A stretch of 64,000 nucleotides of DNA, from NCBI RefSeq assembly GCF_947259345.1, contig NZ_CAMYLS010000013.1:1-64000 (forward strand), written 5' to 3'. Of the stretch, positions 52,684 to 60,644 are shown one piece after another (within the stretch, counting starts at the first letter, position 1; each line of letters opens with the position of its first letter). Origin of the DNA: an uncultured Maricaulis sp. Its GTDB lineage: Bacteria; Pseudomonadota; Alphaproteobacteria; Caulobacterales; Maricaulaceae. The notes under the pieces were generated by a model, which searched no databases, had not been told where the DNA came from, and worked only from the letters and a program-made list of their open reading frames with translations. The translations under genes were made by a program, and so were the position numbers.

Positions 52684-53343
52684 TCAGTCCTCGGCCCATT
52701 GACGCAGAAGATTGGCCTTGGTCTTGAGGATCAGGTCGAGCTCACGCGTCTTGCCCTCGCGCTCGAAAAGGCGGTTCGAGACCTGATCGAGATCGAAAAG
52801 GATTTCGCGCTGGTCCGCGCGGCGCACAAGTGACCGGACCCACCCGACAACCGCCAGCCTCTCGCCGCTGGTGACCGGGGCGACATGATGAATGGCCGAA
52901 GTGGCGTAGAGGACGGCATCGCCAGGATCGAGCTTGATTTCGGTCTCGCCCTCCGTTCCGTCCATGACCAGCTCACCGCCCTCATAACTGTCCGGCGCGC
53001 TGAGAAAGAGGGTGAAAGAGAGATCCGCCCGGCGCCCCCCCATGAGCGCATCATCAATATGGGGACCGTATTCCATACCCTCACGATAGCGCGAGACCAG
53101 AATGCGCGAGAGCGCCTTGGGACGGGCAAAGCTGACAAAGCCGGCATGGGTCATCAAGGCCTTGCGGACCTCGCTGCGGACCGTATCGACACGGGCGCCG
53201 GTCTCCAGCTGTTCATTGTCCTTCACATCGCGGGCGACGCGGCCCGCCGTCTTGCCACCATCCCTGAACACCCCCTCACCGATCAGCCTGCGGAGATGAT
53301 CGACTTGCTCAGGCGAGCAGACATTTTGCAGATGAATGAGCAT
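52684..53343 (-). CDS. Fe(II)/2-oxoglutarate-dependent PKHD-type dioxygenase (PiuC/YbiX-like)
   Basis: 219 aa. Facial-triad residues H95-I-D97 and H152 in the IHHV-A-P-V-T-S-G motif, with the 2-oxoglutarate arginine at about R162 (SGER). Close relatives (YbiX, PiuC) are encoded next to catecholate-siderophore TonB receptors and are made under iron limitation. Here the divergent neighbour, 93 bp away, is an EG-repeat lipoprotein instead; no receptor is adjacent. AGGATGG precedes the ATG. Hydroxylation target unknown. Confidence 0.93.
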   Translation of the reverse strand: MLIHLQNVCSPEQVDHLRRLIGEGVFRDGGKTAGRVARDVKDNEQLETGARVDTVRSEVRKALMTHAGFVSFARPKALSRILVSRYREGMEYGPHIDDALMGGRRADLSFTLFLSAPDSYEGGELVMDGTEGETEIKLDPGDAVLYATSAIHHVAPVTSGERLAVVGWVRSLVRRADQREILFDLDQVSNRLFEREGKTRELDLILKTKANLLRQWAED

Positions 53344-53436
53344 GAGCCATCCTGCGACTAATTGTCATTTGCTTGAAAAGCCATTAGGCCTTTATCGCAT
53401 TGATGAGAGTGAAATCCATCCGCGAAAGGAAGTCTC

Positions 53437-54306
53437 ATGGGGATCAAGCGTCGCACGCGTGTCTGGACATCGGTTGGAACCGCCGCACTCCTGGGCGGCT
53501 TGGCCAGTTGCAGTGACCCCGCGGAAGCCCCGGTCGGACCGGACACCCATGAAGACAGCCGGGCGGCGAGCGCTGCGGCCTTCTCGGAAGGAGAAGGTGA
53601 AGGTGAAGGTGAAGGTGAAGGTGAAGGCGGCGGCAGCGGCGGCGAATTCGGCATCGATCCGCTCGAGGCTGAAACCAATCCGGTCATTTACCTGACAGCC
53701 CTGGAAGTCATGCGCGCTCACTACCTGGCCGGTATTGATGCTTTTGAAGCCGGCGAACGCACTGCGGGTGCAGAGATGTTCGCGCACCCGATTTCCGAGA
53801 TTTATATCGATTTCGAACCTGTTCTGGATGCCCGCGGAGCGCCCCTCTTCGGCGACATCATGACGGATGCGTCGGTCGCGCCCTATTCCGGTGAAAGCGA
53901 TGACGCCATTGCGGCGCGCGTGGACGACGTCATCACGGCAATCGACACCGCCTCCGATTTCGCGCCACGCAATCACCTCTCTCCTGCCGGTGTCCATGCC
54001 CGGGTCATGACCGATCTGATTGAGCGCGCCGCCCTGCAATTCGAGGTGCTCGCCACCAATCCGGATGCACAGGAAGCCTATCTCGACGGCTATGGCTTTG
54101 CCCGCGCTGCGGAACGCTATGCCGGCCATCACCTCGAACAGATTGCCGATGGCGATGCCGACCTCGCCCTGCTGCTCGGACGTGCGGTTGGTGCCATACA
54201 GACCGCCTTTCCAACGGCAACACGGCCAACCGTGCTCGCAGGCGACAGCACCAATCTTCTCGCTCTGGCTGGCCAGGTTCGCGCCGGAGCCGACGCGCTG
54301 CGCTGA
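53437..54306 (+). CDS. lipoprotein with (EG)7 tract, function unknown
   Basis: 289 aa starting at 53437 (AAAGGAAG upstream). The lipobox L-A-S-C25 marks a lipoprotein. Residues 51-64 are seven Glu-Gly repeats, encoded by seven tandem 6-bp units (53587-53628) that could expand or contract without a frame shift, then a Gly/Ser linker. The rest (about 75-289) is helical with HYLAGIDAFEAGERTAGAEMF and two later His clusters, which looks like a metal- or haem-binding helical bundle but not a family I can name. Divergent from the PKHD dioxygenase, so iron regulation is possible; inference only. Confidence 0.8.
   Translation: MGIKRRTRVWTSVGTAALLGGLASCSDPAEAPVGPDTHEDSRAASAAAFSEGEGEGEGEGEGEGGGSGGEFGIDPLEAETNPVIYLTALEVMRAHYLAGIDAFEAGERTAGAEMFAHPISEIYIDFEPVLDARGAPLFGDIMTDASVAPYSGESDDAIAARVDDVITAIDTASDFAPRNHLSPAGVHARVMTDLIERAALQFEVLATNPDAQEAYLDGYGFARAAERYAGHHLEQIADGDADLALLLGRAVGAIQTAFPTATRPTVLAGDSTNLLALAGQVRAGADALR
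53587..53628 (+). repeat. hexanucleotide tandem repeat (GAAGGT/A/C)7
   Basis: Seven direct copies of GAAGGN inside the lipoprotein gene; copies 2-6 are identical (GAAGGT). Loss or gain of a unit would change the linker length by two residues. Slipped-strand variation is a reasonable expectation for such a tract. Confidence 0.85.
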
Positions 54307-54517
54307 CGACCGACATCCAAGTGTGATAGCCGACACATCGGCGCTGACCTGCGGACTTTATAGTCGCTGAATGTCAGAACCGGTCAGCCCTCACGACGCA
54401 CACATCACGCCCCGCATAATTTTACCCGACACGCAGGACACGAATCGACGTTGAGGTTGGGGTTGAGGCGCAAATTGTAGCATGGTCGCGCCAAACGGGC
54501 TGAACTGGAGATTTCTG

Positions 54518-54901
54518 ATGGGATATTTCGACATCAATAACTTCATGCCCCATGGCATGTGTTTTCTCTGGCGGCCTGAATTGGTGGGCATGCATGTCAT
54601 CGCCGACCTGGCCATCGCCCTCGCCTATTTCTCCATTCCGATCACCATCATGATCTTTCTGCGCCGTCTCGAGCAGGCCCTGCCTTTTCGCTGGGCGTTC
54701 ATCATGTTTGGCATTTTCATTTTGTTTTGCGGCATCAATCACGTGATGAATATCGTCGTGCTTTGGTACCCGCTCTATTATGTCGAAGCGGTGCTCAAGC
54801 TCTTTACCGCCGCCGCCTCCATTGCGACAGCGGTGCTGATGCTCCCCTTGGTTCCGGTTCTTCTCGACCGGTTTACGCGGATTTCGGAATCGGAAGGATA
54901 G
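54518..54901 (+). CDS. stand-alone ethylene-receptor-type membrane sensor domain
   Basis: 127 aa from the ATG at 54518 (TGGAG 8 nt upstream; in-frame extension upstream is not membrane-like). Three transmembrane helices match the ETR1 ligand domain: D30 and Y37-F-S-I-P41 in helix 1, and the copper-binding pair C71-G-I-N-H75 in helix 2, with K94 in helix 3. The N-terminal MPHGMCFLW motif is the typical start of bacterial relatives of this domain, which are normally fused to PAS/GAF histidine kinases. Here the domain is a separate protein; a different membrane histidine kinase begins 8 bp downstream. Ligand could be ethylene or another small molecule bound by Cu(I). Confidence 0.9.
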   Translation: MGYFDINNFMPHGMCFLWRPELVGMHVIADLAIALAYFSIPITIMIFLRRLEQALPFRWAFIMFGIFILFCGINHVMNIVVLWYPLYYVEAVLKLFTAAASIATAVLMLPLVPVLLDRFTRISESEG

Positions 54902-54909
54902 GCCCGCCC

Positions 54910-56616
54910 TTGTCGCAACCAGCTGACGCGTCGACACCGTCCCGGCCCGAAACGGAGAGCGAGTATGAGACGCTCTCCGGCCTGCTGCACGCCTATCGAA
55001 CCCCCGTTGCGATCATCCTGTTCGGGATCATGGTCTCGCTGATCCTTTTCTTCGCGACACTGGTCGGACAGACCCGCGACAAGGAAAACGCCTTTCGTAG
55101 CTACGCACTCGCACGGGTCGTTGAACTGGACGGCGCCATGGCGACCCTGGACGTCGAGTTGCGTCAACTCGCCCAGGTGATCGATAGCGGCCTCACGCCA
55201 GACGACGCGTTGAACATTTTCAGGACCGCGGGAGTACGCAATCATATCCCGGTGGTCCGTGATATGGGGATTGTCGAGGGTGGCCGCCTACGCGGCGCCC
55301 TGGACAGCGAGATCGGCCAAACCGTCGCCCGGGAGATCGGCGCCCAGATGGCCCGCGATGTTGTGCCAACCGGTTCAGCCATTCTGCCGCTCCCGGGTGA
55401 TGACAGGAGCAATAGCCGCTTTGCCATTATCTTGGGCCTGCCGGAACGCCCCGAGCTGTTTGCTTATGTAGCCTCTGATCTCGATGTCATGCTGGCGAGC
55501 CCCGCCGGCCCCGCTGACCCACTTTGGGTGGTCATCAACATCGCCGACCGCGCACCGACGCACGCGCTTGTCGATACTGCGCAAATGCAAGTCCGGGGCG
55601 ATCGACCCGATATGGACATCCAGTTGGCGCTCGATAGCGCGCCCTTCATGGTGCGCTGGGCGGCTGCCGCGCCCTTCTCCGAAATTCGCGCAACCATCCT
55701 GCCTCGCCGATCCTTTTTGATGCAGCCGGGGGCACTGCCCTGGGTGGTGCTTGCCTCCGCCCTCTTTGCCACCCTGACTATTGGCGCCATCTCGCTGAAA
55801 GACGCCCGCCGGTCCGACGAGATACGCCGCGAAGTGACCCGAAAGACCGCAGAGCTGAGCCGTTCCAACGCCATAATCGCAGCCAAAAATGCCGAGCTGG
55901 ACCGATTTGCCGCGCACGCATCGCACGATTTGCAAGCGCCGCTCAGGGCCATGAAGGGAATTTCCTCATTGCTGGTCGAGCGCCAGCTCGATCTGGATGA
56001 ACGGTCGCGGGATATGCTCGAGCGCATCAACCGGGGCGCGGATCGCGCTCAACGTCTGGTCCAGGATCTGTTGACCTATACCCGCGCGGATCGCCAGGAA
56101 GCCCGCGTGAAATTTATCGAGCCCGAGGCGCTCATCAGCGAAATCGAGGAATTGCTCGGCGCCGCGATCACCGACTCCAACGCCCAACTGAATTGGCAAT
56201 TGGACACGCCAATCTACGGCGACCCCTTCCTTTTGGTCCGCATGCTTCAGAATCTGGTCGGCAATGCGATCAAATATTGCGGAGACGCCGAACCAGAGGT
56301 TCATATCCACGCCCGTCGGGTCGGCGATAACGTCCTGATCAGCGTTACCGATAACGGGATCGGAATCGACAAGGCGTATTTCGGGCGCATCTTCCAGGTC
56401 TTCGAGCGTCTGCATGGTGGCGATACCTATGAAGGCACCGGGATAGGCCTGGCCTTGTGCCAACGAGCCGCGGAACTGCATGGCGGCGACATCGCGGTAA
56501 CCTCAACACCCGGAGAAGGGTCATGCTTTACCGTGCGCCTTCCGGGAAACCTCGCAACAAAGGTCGAGGATTATGACAACTCGACGCCGCAGCGCGCCGT
56601 GTCAAATGATCGCTAG
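54910..56616 (+). CDS. membrane sensor histidine kinase partner of the ethylene-type sensor
   Basis: 568 aa from a TTG start at 54910, 8 bp after the preceding gene (GGAAGGA lies about 11 nt upstream); no other start fits the frame before the first membrane helix. Transmembrane helices at about 32-54 and 275-296 enclose a periplasmic sensor region of CHASE-like size. Then a coiled linker, HisKA with phosphoacceptor H339 (AAHASHDLQAPLR), and HATPase_c with N-box NLVGNAIKY, an intact DNGIG box and GTGIGLALC. The co-encoded 127-aa membrane protein suggests a two-part receptor. No response regulator is adjacent. Confidence 0.9.
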   Translation: MSQPADASTPSRPETESEYETLSGLLHAYRTPVAIILFGIMVSLILFFATLVGQTRDKENAFRSYALARVVELDGAMATLDVELRQLAQVIDSGLTPDDALNIFRTAGVRNHIPVVRDMGIVEGGRLRGALDSEIGQTVAREIGAQMARDVVPTGSAILPLPGDDRSNSRFAIILGLPERPELFAYVASDLDVMLASPAGPADPLWVVINIADRAPTHALVDTAQMQVRGDRPDMDIQLALDSAPFMVRWAAAAPFSEIRATILPRRSFLMQPGALPWVVLASALFATLTIGAISLKDARRSDEIRREVTRKTAELSRSNAIIAAKNAELDRFAAHASHDLQAPLRAMKGISSLLVERQLDLDERSRDMLERINRGADRAQRLVQDLLTYTRADRQEARVKFIEPEALISEIEELLGAAITDSNAQLNWQLDTPIYGDPFLLVRMLQNLVGNAIKYCGDAEPEVHIHARRVGDNVLISVTDNGIGIDKAYFGRIFQVFERLHGGDTYEGTGIGLALCQRAAELHGGDIAVTSTPGEGSCFTVRLPGNLATKVEDYDNSTPQRAVSNDR

Positions 56617-56687
56617 GCTGCGACACCACCTGACAGACCTGATGATCGGCTGGTATAGGCGGGACAACTTGTTTGCTACGGACCGCC

Positions 56688-57623
56688 ATGCCCTCCTTCC
56701 TGGTTGCCGCCCTCTATAAATTTGCGCCGTTGAACGCGGATGCGACACTGCAAGACGACATTCGCACCTTGTGTGTGAGTGAGCATGTCTTCGGCACGCT
56801 TCTGCTCGCCAGCGAGGGAATAAACGGCACGATTGCCGGTCCGGACAACGGTGTTCGGGCCGTTCTCGCCCGCCTGCGCGCTCTGCCTGGTTTCGCGGAT
56901 CTGGAGCACAAGGAGAGTCGCGCCGAGACCCAGCCTTTCCTGCGCATGAAAGTCCGGCTGAAGCGTGAGATCGTCACCATGGGTATCACCGATATCGATC
57001 CGGTCGGTGCCGTCGGGACCTATGTCGAACCGGAAGACTGGAATGACCTCATCACCGCACCCGATGTGGTGACTATTGATACGCGGAATGATTACGAGGT
57101 CCGGATCGGACAATTCGCCGGGGCGATCAATCCGAAGACCGTCTCATTCCGCGAATTCCCCGACTGGTTCCGGACCTTCCGTGAAACCCGCCCCAACGCC
57201 CGCATCGCCATGTATTGCACAGGCGGCATCCGCTGCGAGAAAGCAACGGCGTTCGCGCGGATGGAAGGCGTAGACGAGGTTTTTCATCTCAAGGGCGGCA
57301 TTCTGAAATATCTTGAGCAGATTCCGGAGGCCGAAAGTCGATGGGAAGGCGAGTGCTTTGTCTTTGATCGCCGTGTGGCTGTCACCCACCGGCTGGAAAT
57401 CGGCACGCACACACTTTGCCATGCTTGCCGGGAACCTCTGGGTCCCGAAGACCTGCGATCACCGGACTATCTTCCTGGCCACGCCTGTCCGCATTGTGTC
57501 GAGATCCGCACCCCGGAACAACGTGAACGTTATGCCGAGCGCCATCGCCAGGAAGAGCTGGCCCGCGCGCGCGGCGAACGCCATCTCGGCCAGCCGGGAG
57601 CGCCGCGCGAGGCCGACGCATGA
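56688..57623 (+). CDS. trhO: tRNA uridine(34) hydroxylase TrhO (rhodanese-related)
   Basis: 311 aa from the ATG at 56688. UPF0176 family: N-terminal ferredoxin-like part (about residues 1-95), rhodanese domain with the catalytic loop Y-C177-T-G-G-I-R-C183 and the [11 protein letters not shown] block, and a C-terminal region with two CxxC-like pairs (about C250/C253 and C274/C277). The enzyme inserts a hydroxyl at tRNA wobble uridine (ho5U). It overlaps the GST gene by 4 bp (ATGA), an operon sign. Confidence 0.94.
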
Positions 57624-58258
57624 GCACCGACCGGCCCATCCTCTGGTCCTTCCGGCGCTGTCCCTATGCGATGCGCGCGCGGCTCTCGCTGCACGTCGCC
57701 GAAATCGAGATCGAGCACAGGGAAATCCTGCTGCGCGACAAACCGGCGGCGATGCTGGACGCGTCGCCGAAAGGCACAATCCCGATTCTCGTCCTGCCTG
57801 ACAGGACAGTGATTGATGAAAGCCTGGACATCATGCTTTGGGCGCTCAGGCGGCATGACCCGGAAGCCTGGCTGCGCAATGAAGCCGCCGCACTGGCGCT
57901 GGCCCACGCCTGTGACACCGAATTCAAGCCGCATCTCGACCGCTACAAGTATGCGACGCGCTATGACGGTGCCGACCCCGATGCGCACCGGACCGCCGCC
58001 GCCGAATTCGTGTCCGAGCTGGAAGCCCGGCTCAAACGCTCCGCATCGCTCGATGGCGAGCATGACGGGCTTGCCGATCACGCCATCTTCCCCTTTATCC
58101 GGCAATACGCGCACACTGATCGGGACTGGTTTGCTGGGCAGGATTGGCCCGCAGTCCAGGCATGGCTGACGCGTCACCTCAACTCTGGTCGATTTGCTGA
58201 AATCATGCGCAAATACCCCTTGTGGACGGCCGCTTCAGACACTCACGATGCCACGTGA
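57620..58258 (+). CDS. glutathione S-transferase-like protein
   Basis: 212 aa. N-terminal thioredoxin fold with the SFRRC14PYAMRARL active-site start, cis-Pro strand IPILVLPD and E-S of the glutathione site (DESLDIMLW), then a helical C-terminal domain. The start overlaps the trhO stop by 4 bp. GST-type proteins of this kind (DUF952-like or stringent-starvation-like) conjugate or bind thiol compounds; the substrate is not known. Confidence 0.9.
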
Positions 58259-58289
58259 TGCAATGAATCCACAATCGTGGACAGACTTC

Positions 58290-58304
58290 TGCTGCGGCGC
58301 AGCA
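58290..58304 (+). promoter_or_regulatory. small hairpin in receptor leader
   Basis: TGCTGC-GGC-GCAGCA, six-base stem and three-base loop, in the 163-bp leader of the second receptor gene. With the downstream stem at 58337-58368 it makes a structured 5' region. Confidence 0.3.
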
Positions 58305-58336
58305 TAAAGCTGTCACAGAACCGAATTATCCGTTAT

Positions 58337-58368
58337 CGGAGAGTCCATCCTCGTTGTGCCACTCTCCG
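58337..58368 (+). promoter_or_regulatory. 8-bp inverted repeat in receptor leader
   Basis: CGGAGAGT (58337-58344) pairs with ACTCTCCG (58361-58368) across a 16-nt loop, 54-85 nt before the receptor ATG. It could be an operator or a leader RNA hairpin. I see no B12-box or other known riboswitch signature. Confidence 0.35.
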
Positions 58369-58421
58369 TGAAGCCCACTTCGCTGGCACAGCCCAAACTG
58401 GTTGGCTCGAAAGATCTCCTC

Positions 58422-60644
58422 ATGACCCATGCATCCACCGCCCGCAAACGCGTGCAGCTCGCCGGCGTCAGCGCCCTCGCGCTCACCGCCCTCATCCCGA
58501 CCATGGCTGCCGCTCAGTCCGCACCGACATCGACCACCACGGTCGAAACGATCATCGTGACGACGACACGTCGCGAGGAGAACGTCCAGGACATTGCCAA
58601 TTCGGTGACGGCTCAGTCCGGCGAAGCCCTCGCCCCGCTGACCGAAGGCGGCGCCGACATCCTCAGCCTCGCCGCCCGCATCCCGTCGGTCTATGCGGAA
58701 AGCTCCAATGGTCGCGTCGCCCCGCGCTTCTATATCCGCGGCCTCGGCAATACAGATTTCGACCTCGCCGCCTCGCAGCCAGTCTCGGTGATCATGGACA
58801 ATGTGGTGATGGAAAACGTCATCCTGAAATCCTTCCCGCTGTTCGACGTCGCCCAGGTGGAAATCGCCCGCGGCCCGCAGGGCACGCTGTTTGGCCGCAA
58901 CACGACGGCCGGTACGATCAAGTTTGACTCGGTCCGTCCGACCCAGGAAACCGACGGATATGTCAGCGTCTCGGCCGGCTCCTACGGCACGACGAATCTG
59001 GAAGCCGCAATGGGCGGTGCCCTGGTCGAGGACGTTCTGAGCGCCCGGCTCTCGCTGCTCTCACAGCACCGCGATGACTGGATCGACAATGGCTTCACCG
59101 GCGAGAACAACGCGCTCGGCGGCTTTGATGAGCAAGCCGGCCGCGCCCAGCTACTCTACACGCCGACCGAGTCCTTCGAGGCGCTGCTGAACGTGCATGC
59201 CCGATCGCTGGTCGGCACCTCGGCCGTCTTCCGCGCCAATATCCTGACCCCGGGCGGCAATGCGCTGAACGGCAATTATGTGCGCGACGAAGTCTATTTC
59301 GACAGCACCTTCAACAATCCGCAGGCCTATGACAGCTGGGGCACCAGCGCGGCGCTGAACTACTACACCGATACCGGGGTAACCCTGACCTCGATCACCG
59401 GCTACGAGACCGCCGAGGGCTATTCGCTCGGCGATATTGATGGCGGCAATCTGGTCACCGGACCGGGCGTCATTCCCTTCCCGTCTGAAACCCAGGACGG
59501 CATCGACACGCTCGAGCAATTCACCCAGGAATTCCGCGTCGCCTTCAGCGACGACCAGGCGACCACCTGGCAGCTTGGCGCCTACTATTTCGAAGGCGAG
59601 TTCGACATCACCACAGTTGGCCCGAATGGCGGCTTCCCGCCCTCAACCACCGTGCGCCACGACAACACACTGTGGTCGGCCTTCGGGCAGGTCAGTCATC
59701 AGCTGAATGACAATCTCGAGCTCTCCGGTGGCCTGCGTTTCACGCATGACGCCAAGTCGCTGATCGGCGTGGTGACCTCCATACCGGTCACGCCGGTCTC
59801 CGTGTCGGATGACCAGTTCAGCTGGGACCTGTCGGCCTACTACGATCTGGATGACCGCCAGGCCGTGTTCGCACGCCTCGCCCGCGGTTTCCGCGGCCCG
59901 TCAATCCAGGCCCGTGACGTGGCTTTCTTCAACCCGCCCTCGATCGCCAACAGCGAAACATCGACCTCGTTTGAAGTTGGCTACAAGTCCGAGCCGCTTG
60001 ATGGTCGCGCCCGCTTCAATGCGACGGCCTTCTACTACCAGGTCGACGACCTGCAGCTTTCCGCTGTTGGCGGCGGCGGCAATCTTGTCCAGCTGGTCAA
60101 CGCCGATCGCGGCGTTGGCTATGGCTTCGAGATCGACAGTGAGATGTGGGTGACCGACAATCTCTTCGTCACCGCGGGCCTGTCATGGAATGAGACCGAG
60201 CTGCAGGACAATGACCTGGAAGTCGGCGTGTGCGCCCAGTGCACAGTGCTCGATCCGGATGCGGACAATGATGGTTTCGTCGAAGTCGACGGCAATCCCT
60301 TCCCGCAGGCCCCGGATTACATCCTCTCCTTCACCGCCCGCTACTCCATCCCGGCCGACAATGGTGGCGAATGGTTCGCGTATACGGACTGGTTCTACCA
60401 GGGACGCACCAACCTCTTCCTGTACGAGTCCGAAGAGTTCTACTCGGACGGCAATTTCGAAGGGGGTCTGCGCCTCGGATATGCCGGTGAGCTGGACGGC
60501 GGCCAAGATTACGAACTGGCCGTCTTTGCCCGCAATATCACCGACGAAGACAATCTCGTGGGTGGCATCGACTTCAACAACAATACCGGCTTCGTCAATG
60601 AGCCGCGCATAGTGGGTGTCTCCTTCCGAGCCAGCCTGAACTAG
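58422..60644 (+). CDS. TonB-dependent outer-membrane receptor
   Basis: 740 aa from the ATG at 58422, which starts a signal peptide cut near residue 32 (TMAAAQ). TonB-box region VETIIVTTTRREEN (about residues 41-54), plug with FYIRGLGNTDFD and VEIARGPQGTLFGRNTTAG, and a C-terminal barrel ending in the usual hydrophobic strand (GVSFRASLN). The strands contain many aromatic girdle residues. It imports an unknown substrate; its neighbours (trhO/GST before, amidohydrolase after on the other strand) do not define it. A bidirectional terminator follows at 60671-60702. Confidence 0.95.
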   Translation: MTHASTARKRVQLAGVSALALTALIPTMAAAQSAPTSTTTVETIIVTTTRREENVQDIANSVTAQSGEALAPLTEGGADILSLAARIPSVYAESSNGRVAPRFYIRGLGNTDFDLAASQPVSVIMDNVVMENVILKSFPLFDVAQVEIARGPQGTLFGRNTTAGTIKFDSVRPTQETDGYVSVSAGSYGTTNLEAAMGGALVEDVLSARLSLLSQHRDDWIDNGFTGENNALGGFDEQAGRAQLLYTPTESFEALLNVHARSLVGTSAVFRANILTPGGNALNGNYVRDEVYFDSTFNNPQAYDSWGTSAALNYYTDTGVTLTSITGYETAEGYSLGDIDGGNLVTGPGVIPFPSETQDGIDTLEQFTQEFRVAFSDDQATTWQLGAYYFEGEFDITTVGPNGGFPPSTTVRHDNTLWSAFGQVSHQLNDNLELSGGLRFTHDAKSLIGVVTSIPVTPVSVSDDQFSWDLSAYYDLDDRQAVFARLARGFRGPSIQARDVAFFNPPSIANSETSTSFEVGYKSEPLDGRARFNATAFYYQVDDLQLSAVGGGGNLVQLVNADRGVGYGFEIDSEMWVTDNLFVTAGLSWNETELQDNDLEVGVCAQCTVLDPDADNDGFVEVDGNPFPQAPDYILSFTARYSIPADNGGEWFAYTDWFYQGRTNLFLYESEEFYSDGNFEGGLRLGYAGELDGGQDYELAVFARNITDEDNLVGGIDFNNNTGFVNEPRIVGVSFRASLN

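Follow-up and report, generated by a model that had tools for sequence, protein, structure and literature searches.

A 64,000-nucleotide (nt) stretch of DNA from an uncultured Maricaulis sp. (contig NZ_CAMYLS010000013.1, positions 1 to 64,000; hereafter the window) carries two neighbouring genes that probably encode a split receptor, in which a Cu(I)/olefin-sensing membrane protein of the ethylene-receptor type would control a separate membrane histidine kinase. The small protein, of 127 amino acids (aa), consists of the ligand-binding domain of ETR1-type receptors with its ligand-site residues intact, and the kinase gene begins 8 bp past its stop codon. The initial annotation of this DNA had proposed a small sensor and a transducing kinase, and gene-level and evolutionary evidence supports this view well: the stand-alone sensors found here and in other alphaproteobacteria form a single clade, and their kinase partners are related.

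The sensor and kinase genes

The sensor open reading frame (ORF) runs on the + strand from an ATG at 54518 to a TAG at 54899-54901, and its translation begins MGYFDINNFMPHGMCFLW. A longer in-frame ORF is open from 54482, but in the relative G065 the open frame itself starts at the methionine equivalent to the 54518 ATG, so that 54518 is taken as the correct start. The translation contains D30, Y37-F38-S39-I40-P41, C71, H75 and K94, and thus every residue named in the initial annotation as having the identity and spacing of the ETR1 ligand domain. That annotation had also suggested a hidden Markov model search of the protein, and had described it as having no kinase part. By Pfam, the sole family in it is PF25487 (ETR1_N), which covers residues 22-116 of 127 with a score of 116 bits (cut-off 27; E 9e-34); the same profile matched none of 14 control genomes.

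Three membrane helices are predicted for the sensor, by hydropathy at residues 30-48, 64-82 and 98-116, and by an AlphaFold2 model (predicted local distance difference test score, pLDDT, of 68) at 20-50, 55-83 and 87-108. C71 and H75 (the putative Cu(I)-ligand pair), the helix-1 Asp D30 and the helix-3 Lys K94 are in register with a homologue from Azospirillum brasilense (L187), where they correspond to C75, H79, D35 and K98. This homologue is taken as AzoEtr1, and its start agrees with the published primer.

The kinase gene ends at 56616, in agreement with the initial annotation, and encodes 568 aa from a TTG at 54910, the only ATG, GTG or TTG within the first 60 codons of its open frame. Its product matches HisKA (55 bits) and HATPase_c (98 bits) in Pfam and carries an SHDL motif; a receiver domain was not found in it. 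The earlier description of a kinase with its own two transmembrane (TM) helices and a periplasmic domain agrees with the hydropathy profile, which has hydrophobic stretches at about 38-56 and 278-305, and with the AlphaFold2 model (mean pLDDT 63.5), in which a long helix (22-92), an alpha/beta region (about 97-265) and a further helix (275-316) are predicted. The periplasmic part of the window kinase has no Pfam match at E 0.01 (CHASE and Cache included). Kinase-domain matches lead the best 50 listed in the fold search with the kinase, and give the periplasmic fold no name. Coordinates are collected in Table 1.

Table 1. Features of the sensor-kinase locus in the window, and copper-chaperone genes at related loci
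Feature	Position	Strand	Basis or remark
Upstream flanking gene, 289 aa, synteny marker only	53437..54306	+	no Pfam match at E 0.01; adjoins downstream marker in three pair-less genomes
Stand-alone ethylene-receptor-type sensor, no output domain	54518..54901	+	Pfam ETR1_N, invariant residues, AlphaFold2
C71 codon	54728-54730	+	
H75 codon	54740-54742	+	
8-bp gap, sensor stop to kinase start	54902..54909	+	-4 to +13 bp in 8 Maricaulis pairs, by nearest start codon
Membrane histidine kinase: N-terminal segment, TM1, predicted periplasmic alpha/beta domain, TM2, HisKA, HATPase_c	54910..56616	+	Pfam, hydropathy, AlphaFold2
Conserved juxtamembrane stretch and kinase TM1, face Y29-P32-I35-G39-S43-F47-L51	54958..55065	+	identity 0.78-0.79 in 8 Maricaulis
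Downstream flanking gene, UPF0176/rhodanese, synteny marker only	56691..57623	+	Pfam, synteny
SCO1/SenC copper-chaperone genes	L140:3788-4351, L180:4399-5007, L181:4749-5336		directly upstream of stand-alone sensor, second order

Conservation of the pair in Maricaulis

A search with the 127-aa protein found six named relatives, in Maricaulis maris, M. parjimensis, M. alexandrii and three Maricaulis metagenome-assembled genomes. The sensor is present in 8 of 19 Maricaulis genomes, and a full-length kinase match (at least 46% identity) adjoins it in the same eight. In the other 11, both the sensor and a full-length kinase match are absent, and only partial kinase matches (188 bits or less) were found. 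The loci of the seven other carriers were compared over 16-18 kb around the pair (12 kb for one contig). All eight share the order 2OG-oxygenase (opposite strand), 289-aa gene, sensor, kinase, UPF0176/rhodanese and GST. Two checks proposed in the initial annotation, co-occurrence of the two genes and conservation of the pair in related genomes, were thus borne out by their adjacency in all eight carriers and joint absence from the other 11, and further by nine split systems outside the genus (see below). The Cys/His pair, whose loss in close relatives had been named as evidence against the proposal, is kept in all eight.

As an alternative, the locus could be an ordinary fused receptor whose frame was interrupted by a sequencing error, programmed frameshift or recent mutation. 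Elsewhere in the family and order the domain sits in frames of 358-650 aa, taken as fused (frames of at least 358 aa are called fused by length, and the Pfam test for a kinase covered a minority of them), and the survey included one fused receptor whose frame is broken (G196, L138). The explanation is rejected for the window, its probability being negligible. With the nearest start codon taken as the kinase start, the kinase begins -4, 6, 7, 8, 8, 9, 9 and 13 bp from the sensor stop in the eight genomes, so that every frame occurs; the sensor gene ends in TAG, TGA or TAA. A frameshift or read-through mechanism is unlikely because frame, gap and stop codon all vary. The kinase also has an N-terminal segment and TM1 of its own, and the stand-alone sensors form their own clade. 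The earlier statement that the arrangement is not a simple frameshift therefore stands, since the two-gene layout recurs in seven other genomes.

In all seven relatives the sensor ranks first in conservation among the neighbouring products compared: its identity to the window's protein is 80-94%, whereas that of the kinase is 45-70%. D30, Y37, I40, P41, I68, C71, H75 and K94 are invariant in the eight Maricaulis proteins, and these include all seven ETR1 ethylene-binding residues (D30, Y37, I40, P41, I68, C71 and H75). For the Y, I, P and I among these, the correspondence with ETR1 positions is the one that we take to be given by Wang 2006. The ratio of nonsynonymous to synonymous substitution rates (dN/dS; Nei-Gojobori, same four pairs) ranges over 0.03-0.12 in the sensor, compared with 0.13-0.35 in the kinase, dS being near saturation and the values rough.

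Conservation is uneven along the kinase. Mean pairwise identity among the eight Maricaulis proteins is 0.78 in the juxtamembrane stretch, 0.79 in TM1, 0.34 in the periplasmic part, 0.71 in TM2, 0.80 in HisKA and 0.66 in HATPase_c. A control two-TM kinase of about 790 aa from the same eight genomes gave 0.82-0.87 for TM1, 0.50-0.92 for the periplasmic part and mostly above 0.8 for the kinase part; beside this single control, the variable periplasmic part of the sensor's partner is unusual. A second set of proteins considered as a control does not have two TM segments and was left out. At its extreme C-terminus the kinase ends in SNDR in the Maricaulis carriers (SNDH in one of the eight; window 56596-56613), and the 17 residues before the last six are poorly conserved (mean identity 0.16, versus 0.71 for the C-terminal end, in the eight Maricaulis).

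Gain and loss of the pair

Neither gene was found beside the downstream marker in the 11 pair-less genomes. Two of these are incomplete, G068 at 65% and G079 at 69%, and the G079 contig stops at the marker. In three of the 11 (G078, G064 and G068) the upstream and downstream markers are neighbours, about 100-150 bp apart. In the other eight the upstream marker was not found beside the downstream one, so that an empty site is unreadable. A tree was built from four flanking proteins of 16 genomes (1490 columns; G067, G074 and G079 left out). The eight carriers together with G078, G064 and G068 form one clade (100/100), in which G078 is sister to the window's genome (100/100), G064 to G065 (97/98) and G068 to G062 (100/100). 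Because each of the three is sister to a carrier, the tree fits four changes, one gain and three losses, each of both genes. Repeated gain at one site would also fit and counts against joint loss, but is less likely.

These data bear on the possibility that the two proteins are merely co-transcribed or translationally coupled, and either do separate work or are linked in that the small gene mainly sets translation of the kinase. The genes overlap or nearly touch, and in cbrX-cbrA of Pseudomonas putida the translation of a kinase is reported to be coupled to a small upstream gene (PMC6591292; this and the other papers are cited for the excerpts of them that were available). We consider mere coupling quite improbable: the sensor is far better conserved than the kinase and has the lower dN/dS, a ligand site would not be expected to persist in a mere leader peptide, both genes are absent together from the same locus at three points in the flanking tree, and one family of kinase sensor halves tracks the stand-alone sensor clade (see below).

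Split systems outside the genus

PF25487 was searched for in the family (137 genomes) and in samples of the order (249 genomes), class (385) and phylum (398). The family survey gave 24 genomes over the cut-off, with sensor-only genes in the eight Maricaulis and frames of 371-573 aa in the other 16. In the order, 27 were over the cut-off and sensor-only genes were confined to Maricaulis (seven in that draw). The phylum gave 28, where the short frames were the window's gene and a 48-aa fragment in G761. The class also gave 28, with short frames in G000, G269, G373, G196, G140 and G331.

On reading of the loci, G269 and G373 are genuine split systems. Three others were not counted. G196 (L138) is the fused receptor with a broken frame mentioned above. 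G331 (L142-L143) has a 394-aa frame with kinase sequence and a 101-aa frame that ends near the contig end. G140 was set apart, as its short sensor is weak (47 bits) and the sensor half of the following kinase is unrelated to the others (hhalign 0.1% or less against both the Maricaulis and the second-order kinases); this ethylene-receptor-like membrane protein just before a kinase (L141:4296-6175) is possibly an independent split system.

The order to which G373 belongs, a second alphaproteobacterial order and perhaps Micavibrionales, was then represented by 142 genomes, of which 13 were over the cut-off and eight carry a sensor-only gene (G373, G922, G935, G939, G970, G971, G972 and G998; G935 also has a fused receptor). 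In all eight loci, by eye, the sensor precedes a membrane kinase; one or two receiver genes come next and, after these, a longer one. The last is a receiver-kinase by Pfam in G373 and by eye in G939, G971 and G972, and is partly seen in the other four. A SCO1/SenC gene (134-148 bits) lies directly upstream of the sensor in three of the eight (G373, G922 and G939). Two sensors have a damaged metal site, that of G998 (L184) being without the Cys and that of G970 (L185) without both Cys and His, and the kinase operon is kept in both. Sensor and kinase, which would be one polypeptide in a receptor of the ETR1 type, are thus separate ORFs in all eight Maricaulis and in nine other split systems.

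Upstream of the split sensor of G269 (L139:1854-4228) are genes for an ABC-transporter ATPase and an FtsX-like permease (by eye) and a DUF3299 gene (Pfam).

One sensor clade with related kinases

For a sensor tree, 141 matches were reduced to 99 rows by excluding those below 75 bits, domains shorter than 100 aa and duplicates. All 17 stand-alone sensors fall on one side of a branch that separates them from the 82 others, with support of 100/96. In a second tree, limited to residues 10-110 so that the part behind TM3 could not drive the grouping, the branch received 92/90, a value at which the grouping is neither shown nor rejected. Within the full tree the Maricaulis sensors lie inside the second-order group (92/86, not strong), a nesting that suggests transfer.

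The sensor halves of the kinases were compared by hhalign. Those of Maricaulis matched seven second-order kinases with 98.1% (E 7e-13, 301 columns), and G935 was matched by Maricaulis with 94.4% and by the seven second-order kinases with 99.7%; the latter also matched G269 with 98.1%. Across all 17 split-system kinases, Y29, G39, F47, L51, F62 and W278 are invariant and P32 and P277 nearly so, while I35 is kept in 15 of 17 and S43 in 14 of 17 (numbering of the window kinase, which is the alignment number + 17). Y29, P32, I35, G39, S43, F47 and L51 share one helix face.

A profile of the kinase half gave strong matches (at least 268 bits) in 3 of 385 class genomes (G000, G269 and G373) and 8 of 142 genomes of the second order. 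This set coincides with the genomes that have a stand-alone sensor of this clade, and below it the highest score was 52 bits. The profile was built from these same kinases, which therefore match by construction, and the informative part is that no other genome among the 385 and 142 searched gave a strong match. Of those with weak matches only, the 16 order genomes are without a PF25487 match, and one of the two class genomes (G207) has a fused sensor elsewhere.

From these trees and alignments, the view that stand-alone sensor and kinase form one module in three lineages, and not repeated accidents, appears well supported. The split-receptor reading is strengthened because the stand-alone sensors of three lineages form a single clade and their kinase partners are related.

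A possible mechanism

Lacking an output domain, the sensor must signal through a partner, and the likely candidate is the product of the only gene that is always adjacent, the kinase. In the proposed mechanism, the 127-aa protein would form a three-helix bundle, presumably dimeric, within the inner membrane, with Cu(I) held by C71 and H75 and with D30 and K94 placed as in ETR1 and AzoEtr1. It would detect ethylene or another small olefin-like gas and pass the signal laterally within the membrane to the kinase, at its TM1 and juxtamembrane segment. The conserved TM1 face is the best candidate for the contact, and could also serve kinase dimerization. The periplasmic domain of the kinase may take a second input, and phosphate would be passed to a response regulator, which is not beside the pair in Maricaulis and is next door in the second order.

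Seven residues are needed for ethylene binding in ETR1 (PMC6682694, PMC11819568); its Cys/His site was modelled in the dimer interface, and one copper per monomer was measured (PMC6586836). AzoEtr1 of A. brasilense, also an alphaproteobacterial protein, has a three-helix sensor domain in which D, Y, I, P, C, H and K align with those of the window sensor, and its domain, expressed in yeast, binds ethylene by experiment (PMC11819568). However, AzoEtr1 is one 525-aa protein with PAS and kinase parts behind the sensor (PMC11819568), whereas here a separate 127-aa sensor stands beside a kinase with membrane and periplasmic parts of its own. SynEtr1 of Synechocystis (slr1212) and plant ETR1 likewise share the sensor domain and ligand-site residues (PMC6682694, PMC6586836), but are fused to a cyanobacteriochrome or GAF domain plus kinase, while in the present case the signal must cross between two proteins. 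Control of a histidine kinase by a separate membrane or envelope protein is known from QseG-QseE (PMC12691602) and LiaF-LiaRS (PMC3543457); the excerpts describe no ethylene-receptor domain there, in contrast to the window, where the accessory protein itself carries the putative ligand site. The kinase resembles CHASE and Cache sensor kinases in its order of TM, periplasmic alpha/beta domain, TM and kinase. It differs from them in having no match at E 0.01, and its second-order relatives reach only sub-threshold scores (dCache_1 27 bits, cut-off 45; CHASE 14 bits, cut-off 25).

The pair might instead report copper or redox state and not ethylene, with the small protein sensing Cu(I) or serving as a subunit that holds copper. 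In ETR1, copper occupies the same Cys/His site (PMC6586836), and the SCO1/SenC gene directly upstream of the sensor in three of the eight second-order loci would suit such a role. Against this, AzoEtr1 binds ethylene with the same residues (PMC11819568), invariance in Maricaulis extends past the metal ligands to D30, Y37, I40, P41 and I68, and no copper gene was detected beside the pair in this genus. A purely copper-reporting pair is on balance unlikely.

Several results weigh against a split olefin receptor. Sequence and fold searches of solved structures (PDB) with the sensor gave nothing at E 0.001 (best E 0.88 by sequence), and both AlphaFold2 models are weak at the pLDDT values given above. 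Conservation of the kinase TM1 is not specific, since the control TM1 has 0.82-0.87, and the contrast is weaker in the seven second-order kinases (TM1 only 0.50, periplasmic part 0.35, HisKA 0.70). The Maricaulis kinase half, aligned directly with the single G269 kinase, fails (0.2%). No regulator or copper gene was found by Pfam among the seven window proteins tested at 52684-60641. The pair can apparently persist without a metal site, as in two of the eight second-order sensors; given that the kinase is kept beside these damaged sites, the sensor may also play a structural role.

The papers cited here present bacterial ethylene receptors as fusions with diverse outputs (PMC7700396, PMC6682694, PMC11819568). 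Among the open-access matches listed, the excerpts describe no stand-alone or split ethylene sensor with a separate kinase, which is weak evidence of novelty. We lean slightly towards the broader view that these pairs represent a distinct class of two-protein gas receptor, integrating a gas and a second signal, with one origin and a presence in at least three alphaproteobacterial lineages. Such receptors would sometimes have their own SCO1 copper-loading gene, and would have been gained by Maricaulis, possibly by transfer, and lost as a unit several times.

How the membrane sensor of ethylene receptors talks to its output is unsettled (PMC6586836), and ETR1 has resisted crystallization (PMC12643061). 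The natural split provides the sensor as a separate protein of 127 aa. It suggests that the signal can pass between membrane proteins, so that the sensor-to-kinase step becomes testable with two small parts. The pairing kept in distant bacteria points to a two-part version of a receptor that is usually one protein, and these alphaproteobacteria gain a candidate olefin sense.

Other observations

A promoter scan found none. The upstream 289-aa protein contains a Gly-Glu repeat run (GEGEGEGEGEGEG) that is encoded by a simple DNA repeat.

A plasmid search returned 19 records, each below 60% identity; seven have a product name (three ATP-binding protein, three PAS and one sensor histidine kinase). 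ETR1_N also occurs in a phage: a 289-aa hypothetical protein of Maribacter phage Colly_1 (NC_062752.1; L228:2935-3804) scores 59.9 bits, and eight Maribacter phage records match. The Colly_1 protein keeps Cys-Gly-x-x-His, but on inspection by eye the helix-1 Asp is replaced by Asn and the Pro by Ser; its gene lies just upstream of the endolysin gene.

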